Of a stretch of DNA of 5,348 nucleotides, positions 1 to 5,348 are shown in pieces (positions within the stretch are counted from its first letter, which is position 1; the number at the start of each line of letters is the position of its first letter). The notes under the pieces were generated by a model. That model saw only the letters and a list, made by a program, of their open reading frames with translations. It ran no database searches and had not been told where the DNA came from. Origin of the DNA: Candidatus Desantisiibacteriota bacterium. GTDB taxonomy: Bacteria > JACRDZ01. Position numbers and translations under genes: made by a program. The stretch spans positions 4,333 to 9,680 of the forward strand of contig JACQWU010000287.1 in NCBI GenBank assembly GCA_016209155.1. Direction: 5' to 3'.

Positions 1-919
1 ACTCTATATGGATAACGGCGCGCTTGCACGCGCGGAAGCAACAAAAGAATTTATGAGCCGGATCGGAGTTGAAATCAAAACTCACGAGCCGGACAGCCCC
101 GAAGATACAGGAAAAATAGAAGTTAGGTGGAAAACACTTTGGTCAAACTTTGAACTGCCTGAATTTATAATGGATCCTCGCTGGGAAGACAGAGAATACA
201 CGTTGTCAGATTTACATCAACGGTTACTAAATTACACACATCAATACAATCAAAAAGCTCATCCTACTAATATTAAAATTTCAAAAGAGCAATCATGGCT
301 TAGGGTAATGCAGTCCGGTGGAGTTATAGACATAGATCAAGATGTATTTGATACAGTATTCAGACGTCTGAAGCGATATGTAGGACGTGATGGCATTGTT
401 AGCATTGATACCTACAAGTATTTTGTCAAAGGTCTATATGACACCTGGGTATACATCTACCAGGGCGTCTTTGACGGCCGGATAGTAGCCGAAGATATCC
501 TATCTCATAAACGATACGAAGCGGAAATATACGTAACCCCCGGACTTGATGAAATTAAATCCGACAAAAAATTAGCATCTGAAATTATACGCGAAGAATC
601 AGAAGAAATAAAAAAACAATTTTCCCCAGGTCAGTTTAAAGGCATCTACGAAGTAACCAATCAAGCTCAAAACCTAATACCCATGCCCATCAGAACAAAA
701 GAAACAAAAGAAGTACCGGATCCGTTTGATGTAGATGCATTTCCATCGCTCACGGAAGCGATGAAAGAATTACACGAAATTGTAGGAATCTCAATTTCAC
801 AGGAACAAAGAGAAATAATAGAAAATTTAATCAAAAAAAATGGCTGCAAAAAAGCATACGTAACCGACTTTGCTCTTGAACTAAGAGCAAGTCTCGAGGA
901 AAAAAGAGTCGCATTGTAA
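1..919 (+). CDS. muA: Mu-type DDE transposase, C-terminal part (5' end outside window)
   Basis: The reading frame is open from base 2 (Leu-Tyr before the first Met), so the ATG at 8 is internal and the gene continues upstream. Numbering from that Met, Asp2 in the YMDNG motif fits the second catalytic Asp of an RNase H-like integrase fold. Glu38 in TGKIE fits the catalytic Glu, giving the classic D-35-E spacing. Residues about 110-175 (FRRLKRYVGRDGIVSI, then YDTWVYIYQ) match the beta-barrel domain that follows the catalytic core in MuA. The remaining charged tail, ending with helices at about 255-300, sits where MuA binds its ATPase and ClpX; that role is inferred. The protein would cut and join phage ends during transposition. 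The ATPase gene follows after 48 nt. A TnsB-like transposase is the alternative, but downstream gam, gemA and mor favour a Mu-like phage. Confidence 0.88.
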   Translation, partial: LYMDNGALARAEATKEFMSRIGVEIKTHEPDSPEDTGKIEVRWKTLWSNFELPEFIMDPRWEDREYTLSDLHQRLLNYTHQYNQKAHPTNIKISKEQSWLRVMQSGGVIDIDQDVFDTVFRRLKRYVGRDGIVSIDTYKYFVKGLYDTWVYIYQGVFDGRIVAEDILSHKRYEAEIYVTPGLDEIKSDKKLASEIIREESEEIKKQFSPGQFKGIYEVTNQAQNLIPMPIRTKETKEVPDPFDVDAFPSLTEAMKELHEIVGISISQEQREIIENLIKKNGCKKAYVTDFALELRASLEEKRVAL

Positions 920-967: not shown

Positions 968-1918
968 ATGACAAAATTAGAAGTATTAGCAGAATACGGC
1001 TTCAAACGTGATCCGTTTAAAGCACTTGTTATGGAGACAGCCGATTTTACACGTGTTAAACGCATACTATCGCTCGCAATTGAATCAAAAGCAATGATAT
1101 CAATTATTGCAGACAGAGGATTTGGCAAAAGTGATGCATTGGAGCTGGCAATAAAAGACAAGGATTATTCTATTGTGAGGGTAACACCTAATGATAAAGA
1201 AGAAATTAAAGTTGGGGATATCGAACAAGAAATAATTCTTAAATTATCTCAAGAAAGTGTAAAAAGAACCAGAGTGATCAGAACGCATCAGGTACGTCGA
1301 TTGCTTGGAGAAGAATCAAGACAACGTCCAGTTATAATTATAATAGAGGAAGCCCATCGCATTAAAGGACAAACATTGAGATCCCTAAAGACAATGAGAG
1401 AAATGGAGTGGATGGGAATCCGCCCGCTCGCAACGATAGTAATGATAGGGCAATACGATCCAATGCGAAAACGTGGAGTTGAGGAAGTAGACCTACGTAC
1501 AGATACATTTTTCATGAAAGGTTTAACATCTCATGAAATAAAAAAATACATTGATACAACAGTCGGAAATTTTTTTGAGCCGGATGCAATAAGCGCAATC
1601 GCAAAATTAAAAGAAGCAAGAAATTTTTTAGAACTCCAAAAAATATTAACTTCCGTGATGTCTTATGCCCTTGAAATTGGCAAGAAAAAAGTAACAACGA
1701 TGGAGGTTTTTGAGCTGTACGGCGGTGGATTAAAAGAACTATTAAAAATTACTAACAGCACTATAGGAGATATCTCCAAAGAAACCGGACTCCCGCGCTC
1801 AACAGTATCAATGAATATCAATAATCAACAAGGTACAATGTCAGATAAAACATTTAACAATGACAGACAAACAATTTCTGATATTTTAAAGAAAAAAATA
1901 GAAGAAAAGGTCGCATAA
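968..1918 (+). CDS. muB: MuB-type AAA+ ATPase, transposition target-DNA activator
   Basis: This 316-aa protein lies directly downstream of the transposase, as MuB does (Mu B is about 312 aa). The P-loop is ADRGFGKS at residues 48-55, with Ala in place of the usual first Gly. Walker B is VIIIIEEAH (122-130), with Glu-Glu rather than Asp-Glu. A sensor-1-like IGQ follows at 160-162. Family knowledge: MuB binds ATP, forms filaments on DNA, recruits target DNA to the transposome and gives target immunity. Residues about 263-286 (SKETGLPRSTVSMNIN) look like a helix-turn-helix of the Cro/cI type near the C-terminus, whereas in Mu B the helix-turn-helix domain is N-terminal. Here the protein enters the ATPase region almost at once. 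TnsC/IstB-like ATPases are the alternative. The start is fixed by AAGGAGG at 956. Confidence 0.85.
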   Translation: MTKLEVLAEYGFKRDPFKALVMETADFTRVKRILSLAIESKAMISIIADRGFGKSDALELAIKDKDYSIVRVTPNDKEEIKVGDIEQEIILKLSQESVKRTRVIRTHQVRRLLGEESRQRPVIIIIEEAHRIKGQTLRSLKTMREMEWMGIRPLATIVMIGQYDPMRKRGVEEVDLRTDTFFMKGLTSHEIKKYIDTTVGNFFEPDAISAIAKLKEARNFLELQKILTSVMSYALEIGKKKVTTMEVFELYGGGLKELLKITNSTIGDISKETGLPRSTVSMNINNQQGTMSDKTFNNDRQTISDILKKKIEEKVA

Positions 1919-3027: not shown

Positions 3028-3552
3028 ATGTCAACATTAATCGAAATTGAAAAGCAAACATGCAAATATGCAGAAATCAGATTACGTCTAAAGGAGGAAA
3101 TGACTATGACAGAAGCCCGTATCAACACAATTAAAAATGAAACTCTGCCAAAAATAAAAAAAGTGTTAACTCAAATGGTAGAAGCAGAATCACAACTTAA
3201 ATCTATGATGGAAGATTCAAAAGATTCATTTGACAAACCCCGTACATATATCTTCCATGGGATAAAGGTTGGGTTCCAAAAATTAAAAGGTAAAATTTTA
3301 TGGGATGATGACGACACAGTAATAAAACTGATCCGCAAACACTTCCCTGACAAAGCTGACACCATGATCCGCACTTTAGAAGTCCCAAACAAACAAGTAT
3401 TATCAGATTTACCCGTTCACGATCTAAAAAAAATAGGAGTAGTAGTAACTGAAACAAGTGATGAAATCATAATAAAATCAACAGACTCCGCCATCGACAA
3501 AATGATAAATGCATTAATGAAGGATTTAGAAAAAATCGAAGACGCCGCATAA
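3028..3552 (+). CDS. gam: Mu Gam-like host-nuclease inhibitor
   Basis: This 174-aa protein has the length of Mu Gam. Residues 1-65 are a long charged coiled-coil helix pair. These are followed by a compact domain with KPRTYIFHGIKVGFQK (70-85), WDDDDTVIKLIRKHFPD (92-108), IRTLEVPNKQVL (114-125) and LKKIGVVV (133-140), the pattern I associate with the Gam family of Mu-like phages. Family knowledge: Gam is a dimeric Ku-like protein that binds double-stranded DNA ends and blocks host exonucleases such as RecBCD. The start at 3028 has GAGGAG at 3014-3019. A second, stronger site (AAGGAGG, 3091-3097) lies before in-frame Met27 at 3106 and could give a 148-aa form. I prefer the long form because the N-terminal helix is a normal part of the family. 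Confidence 0.82.
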   Translation: MSTLIEIEKQTCKYAEIRLRLKEEMTMTEARINTIKNETLPKIKKVLTQMVEAESQLKSMMEDSKDSFDKPRTYIFHGIKVGFQKLKGKILWDDDDTVIKLIRKHFPDKADTMIRTLEVPNKQVLSDLPVHDLKKIGVVVTETSDEIIIKSTDSAIDKMINALMKDLEKIEDAA

Positions 3553-3653: not shown

Positions 3654-3965
3654 ATGACTACTGCTCAATTAACTCAAAACGAAATTTACAAAATTAAAAT
3701 ATCCGTTGACATCGCTGATAAACTCAACAAACTACACCTACAATGCCTCAATGATGCGACCTTACTTATTAACCAAGTTTCAATTATTACAGGCGTAGCC
3801 TTAGAGCTTGAAAAAAAAGTATCCGTTGAAAAAACAACGGAAATTTTAAATCAATTTAATCAGGGTAAATTTACCCCAGCAGAAATAGCTATTAACTTTG
3901 ATTTATCCCTATTAACAGTAGAAACAATAATCAATTATTTCACAAGAGGTACATATGCCAACTAA
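3654..3965 (+). CDS. Small helix-turn-helix-like protein (103 aa)
   Basis: The start is fixed by AGGAGG (3641-3646). Residues 5-58 are mostly helical (KIKISVDIADKLNKL and a hydrophobic stretch LLINQVSIITGVALEL). Residues about 61-97 contain a plausible helix-turn-helix, with KFTPAEIAINFDLSLLTVET forming two helices around a short turn. This suggests DNA binding, but I cannot assign a family. The gene overlaps the GemA-like gene by 11 nt, so both are probably made together. Its location between gam and gemA, behind a 101-nt gap containing two inverted repeats, makes it the first gene of a translational sub-block. It could be a regulator of that block or a structural adaptor; this is inference only. 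Confidence 0.62.
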   Translation: MTTAQLTQNEIYKIKISVDIADKLNKLHLQCLNDATLLINQVSIITGVALELEKKVSVEKTTEILNQFNQGKFTPAEIAINFDLSLLTVETIINYFTRGTYAN

Positions 3966-4365
3966 CCAAAGCCATAATAGACTATTATCCGCCATCTTTG
4001 CCGAAGCCAAATCCGCCTGCATAGATTCCGATTTATTGCGTAATTCAATCGCTCCAGCAATAATCAAAAAACGCATGTCCGCCGCAACAAACAGAGACTT
4101 ATTTATATTATTAACCCATCTTAAAACCAAAAATAATAAGCCCTGGAAAGAAAGCCTAAAACCTAAATTCGATTCCAGCCGCTCAGGATTAATCAAAGAA
4201 CTGGAATCAGTCGCGGATGCGCGATGGGGAGAAGGTTTTGAAAAATCCTTAAACGCATTCATTAATAGTAATAACAAAGATAACATACTAAAACACTATA
4301 AATTTCTAAATATAAGCACCCTAAAAGCAATAAAAAACCGCATAAAAGAATTAAATAATAAATAA
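3955..4365 (+). CDS. gemA: GemA-like protein (Mu gp16 / DUF1018 family)
   Basis: This 136-aa, all-helical, basic protein occupies the GemA position, downstream of gam and upstream of mor. The N-terminal helix (RLLSAIFAEAKSACID, 9-24), the central stretch with LFILLTHLK (49-57), and ARWGEGFEKSLNAFI (89-103) followed by a helical tail (121-134) match the layout I recall for the family, notably the WGEGFE/W-type motif. Family knowledge: Mu GemA is an early protein that changes host gene expression, reportedly through DNA supercoiling and gyrase-related effects; its mechanism is poorly known. The start follows AGAGGT (3945-3950) inside the preceding gene. Similarity is to the pattern, not to Mu GemA residue by residue, so the call is moderate. 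Confidence 0.62.
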   Translation: MPTNQSHNRLLSAIFAEAKSACIDSDLLRNSIAPAIIKKRMSAATNRDLFILLTHLKTKNNKPWKESLKPKFDSSRSGLIKELESVADARWGEGFEKSLNAFINSNNKDNILKHYKFLNISTLKAIKNRIKELNNK

Positions 4366-4416: not shown

Positions 4417-4710
4417 ATGGAAATAATAGAAATGTCAGACAACAAAAACAACAGAACAAAATTTGAGGTTTTAGAACACTGGCTCCATCACAAACAATGC
4501 ATCTCCTGTCAGGGCAGAGGCGTTGTTATAATAATGTCACCTAATAAAGTTGCTCTACAACCAAATATGTCCCGCACGCAAGAGCATTGTCCGGTATGTC
4601 ATGGTACCGGCATAGTAAATTTGCAATCGATGAAGATTAACCATATCAATGAAAAAATAACCCCAAAAAACAATATCTTAAATTTAATAAAAAAAAATAA
4701 AAAAGAATAA
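4417..4710 (+). CDS. Small zinc-finger protein with two DnaJ-like CxxCxGxG motifs (97 aa)
   Basis: Two motifs, CISCQGRG (28-35) and CPVCHGTG (58-65), match the CxxCxGxG repeats of DnaJ zinc domains. Their four cysteines (C28, C31, C58, C61) would hold one zinc ion in a single hairpin-like module, with 26 residues between C31 and C58. There is no J domain and the rest is short: a charged N-terminus with a helix containing EVLEHWLHH, and a Lys/Asn-rich tail (75-97). The role is unknown; likely options are protein or nucleic-acid binding. Isolated half-DnaJ zinc modules are common in phage small proteins. The start follows AAGGAAGGA (4403-4411). The GC-rich palindrome lies just upstream and an AT-rich palindrome just downstream. 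Confidence 0.75.
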   Translation: MEIIEMSDNKNNRTKFEVLEHWLHHKQCISCQGRGVVIIMSPNKVALQPNMSRTQEHCPVCHGTGIVNLQSMKINHINEKITPKNNILNLIKKNKKE

Positions 4711-4745: not shown

Positions 4746-5063
4746 ATGAAACACACTAAAAAATTATTAGAAAATTTGCCAGGGGATCTCAAAGATATAG
4801 CGAGTTTAATAGGTATCGAAAACACCTTTAAACTTGTCCATTTCCGTGGCGGCAGCTATCTAATAATTCCAAAATGTGAAGGACTCATAAAAGAAATCCG
4901 CAATAATAAAATAAGAGAACTATATGATCAAGGTCTCCGCGTAAGAGACCTCTCCTGTCGTTTTAATCTTACCGACAGAACCATTATTTCCATCCTAAAA
5001 GAAACAAGCCAAAATATTCCACTCCCATTATTAGAGTTAATGGAAAAAAAAGGAGATATCTAA
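4746..5063 (+). CDS. mor: Mor-family transcription activator
   Basis: This 105-aa protein matches the Mor/C family pattern. LPGDLKDIASLIGIENTFKL (11-30) forms the N-terminal dimerisation helices, FRGGSYLIIPK (33-43) is the characteristic Gly-Gly turn and beta-strand, and RELYDQGLRVRDLSCRFNL (57-75) then TDRTIISILKE (76-86) form the C-terminal helix-turn-helix. Family knowledge: in Mu, Mor binds as a dimer upstream of the middle promoter and recruits RNA polymerase to switch on the gene for C and hence late genes. The ribosome site is weak (GAAAGA, 4735-4740), unlike the strong sites elsewhere, so Mor may be made at low level. An AT-rich palindrome sits just upstream. The stop codon overlaps the next start by one base. 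Confidence 0.82.
   Translation: MKHTKKLLENLPGDLKDIASLIGIENTFKLVHFRGGSYLIIPKCEGLIKEIRNNKIRELYDQGLRVRDLSCRFNLTDRTIISILKETSQNIPLPLLELMEKKGDI
5050..5055 (+). promoter_or_regulatory. Shine-Dalgarno of the thymidylate-synthase-like gene
   Basis: AAGGAG lies inside the end of the mor-like gene, 7 nt before the ATG at 5063. It fixes the start of the truncated last gene and shows it has its own ribosome site despite the one-base overlap. Confidence 0.7.
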
Positions 5064-5348
5064 TGAATTGTGAATTTATAGAAGCAAGGGATTTACCAGA
5101 TGCATGGTTTCAGGCAATAACAAGAATTCTGGATAAAGGTGTAATATATACAATTACCAGAGGTAGTTATGAAGGGCAGAAACGCAGTGAGCTTGATTAT
5201 GTTACAGTACATATTAGATATCCCGGAACCCGGCCATTAATTCCGGAAATACCGGCTCATTTAGGGATTCCAGCTCCTGTATCAATGGATTATATTGATG
5301 ATTATTTGCCGTATTTAATGACAGATATTAAAAAGGAAAACGAGCAAT
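5063..5348 (+). CDS. thyA: Thymidylate-synthase-like protein, N-terminal part (3' end outside window)
   Basis: Ninety-five codons are visible and the frame is open at the window edge. The visible part matches the N-terminal region of the divergent, archaeal-type branch of ThyA-like proteins. EARDLPDAWFQAITRILDKG (6-25) fits the first helix. RGSYEGQKRSELDYVTVHI (33-51) should contain the phosphate-binding Arg region and first strand. RYPGTRPLIPEIP (52-64) and DYIDDYLPYLMTD (76-88) lead to where the YTYG motif should begin. Family members methylate or hydroxymethylate dUMP or dCMP using methylenetetrahydrofolate. The active-site Cys lies beyond the window, so the activity cannot be judged. It overlaps the mor-like stop (TAATG), placing it in the same transcript. 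Options are supply of dTMP or synthesis of a modified base. Confidence 0.72.
   Translation, partial: MNCEFIEARDLPDAWFQAITRILDKGVIYTITRGSYEGQKRSELDYVTVHIRYPGTRPLIPEIPAHLGIPAPVSMDYIDDYLPYLMTDIKKENEQ

Follow-up and report, generated by a model that had tools for sequence, protein, structure and literature searches.

Mu-like early region

The window, by which we mean the whole analysed stretch of 5,348 nucleotides, corresponds to positions 4333-9680 of contig C248 in the host draft genome G000 (3.08 Mb, 79% complete, about 21% missing). The contig totals 9680 bases and terminates exactly at the window's last base; it covers only the interval from a repressor-like gene to a thymidylate synthase-like gene, referred to here as thy. 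The repressor-like gene, recognized by reading, lies at the opposite contig end and on the opposite strand.

Genes for the Mu A-type transposase, the Mu B-type ATPase, Gam and Mor follow one another in order, all on the plus strand and all with open reading frames (Table 1). This undamaged early region is that of a Mu-like transposable phage, the context that had been proposed in the preliminary description. The ATPase matches transposase B of Pseudomonas transposable phages, and the ORF assigned to GemA occupies the place that GemA takes ahead of mor in BalMu-1. The complete transposase gene spans L001:3623-5251 and contains, just before the window, a short in-frame run of N (L001, about 4312-4332) that is probably a scaffold gap or a masked stretch. 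A further ORF (2366-2851), located in the early operon before gam, has an N-terminal hydrophobic stretch and a weakly lysozyme-like C-terminus (PF18013, E 0.014).

Probes for Mor, Mu B and Mu A recovered no relative of this phage in viral contigs, and Mu B was not found in other genomes of the host phylum. Within the host genome itself, a second Mu B-like stretch (L112; G000:C12:5550-6035) is 28% identical and perhaps belongs to another transposable element.

Table 1. Features of the window, with positions counted from its first base
Feature	Positions	Strand	Evidence
Mu A-type transposase, 3' part	2..919	+	phrog_310 transposase 1.9e-19; rve core 5.5e-4, below its cut-off
Mu B-type AAA ATPase (transposition protein)	968..1918	+	PF13401 (AAA_22) 3.4e-9; phrog_296 DNA transposition protein 1.9e-11
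Mu Gam-like DNA end-protection protein	3028..3552	+	PF07352 2.8e-10, 40.7 bits vs cut-off 28.3; phrog_491 1.4e-14
Mu gp16/GemA-like protein, probable by position (weak)	3955..4365	+	phrog_286 at E 0.005 only
Small 97-aa DnaJ-type zinc-finger protein (CxxCxGxG), just upstream of mor	4417..4710	+	DnaJ_CXXCXGXG 6.7e-6, below its cut-off
mor, Mu middle-gene activator	4746..5063	+	PF08765 2.8e-9, 37.4 bits vs cut-off 24.9; phrog_836 5e-16
Ribosome-binding-like GGAG shortly before the thy ATG, inside the mor 3' end, plus TAATG overlap	5050..5066	+	Sequence read; pattern only, putative function
thy, short archaeal-like ThyA gene, 5' part, 95 codons	5063..5347	+	53-68% identity to full-length relatives passing the PF00303 cut-off; alignment from residue 1 in both

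Junction between mor and thy

The start codon of thy and the stop codon of mor overlap by one base in the form TAATG GGAGATATCTAATG. This overlap and the upstream GGAG support, as a sequence pattern, a putative translational linkage of thy to mor, and to that extent the earlier placement of the gene directly behind mor and linked to it is borne out. The same TAATG form joins the gene pair at 2851, upstream in the same operon.

The phages BalMu-1 and FP_Mushu share with the window's phage the order that runs from Gam to mor. In both, more than 100 bases separate mor from the late genes behind it (lysis, lipoprotein and terminase-type), and thyA is absent from the mor stretch examined in each; thy therefore looks inserted in that slot. 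Since it fills the position after mor, any Mor-dependent promoter would have to lie further on.

No Mor gene scored over its cut-off among 50 viral records that carry the thy family, so the arrangement stands, as far as tested, as a single case with no second mor-thy example. A Mor candidate in one of these records consisted of two sub-threshold pieces with a stop and was rejected. The literature searches run here yielded no report of a Mu-like phage with a thymidylate synthase, a negative result that argues only weakly for true absence; the thymidylate synthase described in PMC8541194 is FAD-dependent and belongs to the lytic phage KASIA.

Identity of the truncated gene

The frame of thy is open at the window's end, and since the contig ends at the same base, the gene is truncated by the contig and not by the window. 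As a consequence, the window holds neither the active-site Cys nor the selective Asn, and the whole catalytic half is absent; the "YTYG" and Cys regions fall outside. A search for the second half of the gene elsewhere in G000 did not find it.

When scanned alone, the 95-residue piece gave no thymidylate synthase match in Pfam, PHROG, NCBIfam or PDB, because these models score mainly the C-terminal half and the piece is the less conserved N-terminal half. Compared directly with proteins of 10 loci (two viral and eight genomic), it aligns over about 90-95 residues with E-values of 4e-30 to 6e-42. These relatives are 218-295 aa long, and the seven full-length ones that were scanned all pass PF00303 (33-45 bits, cut-off 24.3). 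The ORF is thus confirmed, by homology, as the predicted N-terminal part of a short ThyA-family protein, and its description as thymidylate synthase-like holds.

That thy might be a truncated or inactive remnant carried by the phage is suggested by the 95 codons that are visible. Against this, every invariant position that these residues cover is kept, and the final bases, GAG CAA T, are compatible with Tyr, the next conserved residue; we judge a remnant to be very unlikely.

The assignment to an archaeal-type branch was correct in part. Of the NCBIfam models, TIGR03283 (methanogen ThyA) fits the relatives best and spans nearly their entire length, whereas the scores of the seven scanned proteins (76-106 bits) all fall below its cut-off of 174.55, as do those in G001 and G003, two genomes of the host's phylum. 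The family is therefore sister to the methanogen equivalog rather than part of it. The closest homologues of thy are bacterial chromosomal and viral genes, and scans of the relatives gave no match to ThyX (PF02511/Thy1).

Catalytic residues and fold in the relatives

A wider search with alignment A1 extended the family to 76 viral loci. Among 75 full-length or nearly full-length members, with residue equivalences taken from HMMER alignments, the catalytic Cys, the Arg-Ser pair, the Asn equivalent to N177 of E. coli, and the His and Tyr of HxY are invariant (75/75). The Cys and the Asn that distinguishes dUMP from dCMP, which the preliminary description had singled out for inspection, are consequently both present in every one of these relatives.

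An AlphaFold model of L044, a viral relative that shares 68% identity with the window protein across the 95 residues, adopts the ThyA fold with a pLDDT of 95.8 and aligns with ThyA structures at Z about 20 across 192-195 residues. Its top structural matches are AfhB, a phage dCMP hydroxylase (Z 24.2, 203 residues), and MilA (Z 21.1), from which one could read a dCMP hydroxymethylase or an AfhB-like dCMP hydroxylase that serves modified cytosine. We consider this extremely improbable and rejected the top rank as a guide to function: it lies only 1-4 Z units above ThyA, every structural match shows the same 19-23% identity, and the short size of the protein may favour the AfhB and MilA scores. 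By sequence, the closest solved proteins are thymidylate synthases (4.8e-13 and 1.1e-9), as are all of the best 60 solved matches. Moreover, the position that is Asp in the annotated MW202657 pyrimidine hydroxymethylase is Asn in all 75 relatives, as distinct from the window gene itself.

Gene neighbourhoods in viral loci

Several genes of nucleotide metabolism and replication lie near the thy-family gene in viral loci, including those for nucleoside diphosphate kinase (NDK; four loci), the beta clamp (nine loci), thymidylate kinase and ribonucleotide reductase (L046). The DNA polymerase beta-clamp gene follows thy by 0-2 kb in the nine loci, with NDK between them in several; L033, L037, L039, L041 and others display these arrangements around position 8000. 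The gene ahead of thy in nine viral loci encodes related proteins of up to 580-660 aa, shortened in some, with no Pfam or PHROGs match. On a 62-kb viral contig (L046:7145-14479), thy was found, by reading, between a NeuB-like sugar gene, ribonucleotide reductase and sugar-nucleotide-like genes.

In four viral loci, thy comes directly after a phrog_2170-type glycosyltransferase gene (L044:6413-7747, L048:6524-7978, L049:6630-7997 and L074:6669-7955), which in L048 and L049 ends 1-2 bases from the start of the thy ORF. In a fifth locus, a gene of this type (L103:5974-7278) is located 705 bases upstream of thy; the five loci represent separate thy clades. This adjacency could hint at base glycosylation or could simply reflect regions of sugar cargo. 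Cultured phages gave only distant matches to the family (below roughly 35% identity among the matches listed); for instance, a full-length match at 26% in Glutamicibacter phage Montesquieu sits beside genes for alpha-glutamyl/putrescinyl-thymine pyrophosphorylase.

These neighbourhoods bear on the proposal, made in the preliminary description, that the gene serves a modified base. Its most plausible form is a dUMP hydroxymethylase that produces 5-hydroxymethyl-dUMP for hypermodified phage DNA. Such an enzyme would keep the dUMP-selecting Asn, and both the Montesquieu match and the glycosyltransferase genes that directly precede thy in several viral contigs are compatible with it. These neighbours are, however, leads for other viruses and not evidence for the window's phage, and no hypermodification gene was seen within the window. 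The family also is the sole recognizable thymidylate synthase in seven cellular genomes, and the window gene groups with two of these in the tree, as described below. Together with the Asn in all 75 relatives, its status as the sole synthase weakens the modified-base idea; we regard a dUMP hydroxymethylase as improbable, and still more doubtful is the further step in which the Mu-like phage builds 5-hydroxymethyluracil-derived bases as a nucleotide-level counterpart of Mom protection.

Chromosomal relatives and the host lineage

The nearest relatives of thy occur in the host's phylum. G001 (98% complete) and G003 (92%) each carry a chromosomal gene of the family that is their only PF00303 match, and ThyX is absent from both. 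The same holds for G110-G113 and G115 (the genomes of L004-L007 and L009), with one PF00303 match each and no ThyX. Most simply, the family provides the only recognizable thymidylate synthase of these seven cells, draft gaps being possible. Other carriers have a second enzyme, either ThyX (G027, G038 and G116) or another PF00303 gene (G114 and G117). In G002, of the same phylum as the host, ThyX is present and the ThyA family gives no match; the type of thymidylate synthase has therefore switched at least once within the phylum. The ThyX match of G002 contains one in-frame TAA.

The tree placement that had been suggested at the outset put the window gene beside G001 and G003 together with one viral row, L046 (SH-aLRT 93), the window row filling only 38% of the columns.

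This affinity raises the alternative that thy is a chromosomal thyA of the host and came to lie beside mor through either a deletion within a decaying Mu-like prophage or a chimeric assembly. Its nearest relatives do lie on chromosomes within the host's phylum, in a neighbourhood of mtnA, nucleoside phosphorylase, proB and uvrB (by reading); the contig end falls inside the gene, and the GC content of thy equals that of the host, a comparison in which GC and codon position 3 of thy, phage and host are too similar to separate them. A search of G000 for a further ThyA or ThyX found none; the same would be expected if thy were the host's gene, and the result counts against a phage-carried synthase. 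At 79% completeness, however, there is about a one in five chance that a separate host copy was missed; mtnA and the thy-side neighbour, a 128-aa protein, were also not found in G000, an uninformative result at that completeness. A random deletion join is made unlikely by the one-base TAATG overlap, the GGAG in the 3' end of mor and the undamaged early region. We therefore hold this explanation to be unlikely, though it deserves weight.

Probable role in dTMP supply

The explanation that we consider probable is that thy is a phage-carried, short archaeal-like thymidylate synthase gene, derived from the host's lineage, that lies in a Mu-like early operon and raises dTMP. In this proposal, a thyA of the host's lineage would have been inserted immediately after mor, ahead of the genes usually found next in Mu-like phages, and the early/middle transcript would serve for the translation of both Mor and the synthase. 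Using a one-carbon folate or a related pterin, the synthase would turn dUMP into dTMP, and the extra dTMP could support many rounds of replicative transposition. The family, the start and mor overlap, the Mu-like neighbours, the conserved residues of the relatives and the closeness to the host's phylum are direct observations; from them we infer a gene that would be whole in the phage, an active product that would yield dTMP and not hydroxymethyl-dUMP, and the presumed timing of expression.

If this explanation is correct, the locus belongs to a transposing phage with a thymidylate synthase wired to mor, which would imply that dTMP supplementation extends to such phages and that an essential gene of the host's lineage can be acquired by them. 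The short archaeal-like ThyA is, in addition, apparently the only thymidylate synthase in several bacterial lineages, and it is found widely among uncultivated viruses.

Comparison with known systems

The relatives have in common with canonical ThyA (PF00303; E. coli, L. casei and Mtb) the fold, the catalytic Cys, the Asn, the Arg-Ser pair, the Asp and HxY, whereas they are shorter, about 19-23% identical, and carry PPCL in place of PPCH. The modifying enzymes of the thymidylate synthase family (AfhB, MilA and pyrimidine hydroxymethylases) have the same fold as well, but none of them is closest by sequence.

Closer counterparts are the short archaeal-like ThyA proteins of G001, G003 and Desulfobacterales, which begin at the same residue as the window protein and are 65-68% identical to it over the 95 residues; those of G001 and G003 also share its IPAP-SMDY/TMEY stretch. 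In their full-length form, all active-site residues are present. Unlike thy, these copies are chromosomal, beside gyrB in some cases, and are not located behind mor.

Thymidylate synthase genes are frequent in large lytic phages. Their occurrence in phages is thus already known; what is unusual here is the link to mor in a phage that transposes, along with the short archaeal-like type.
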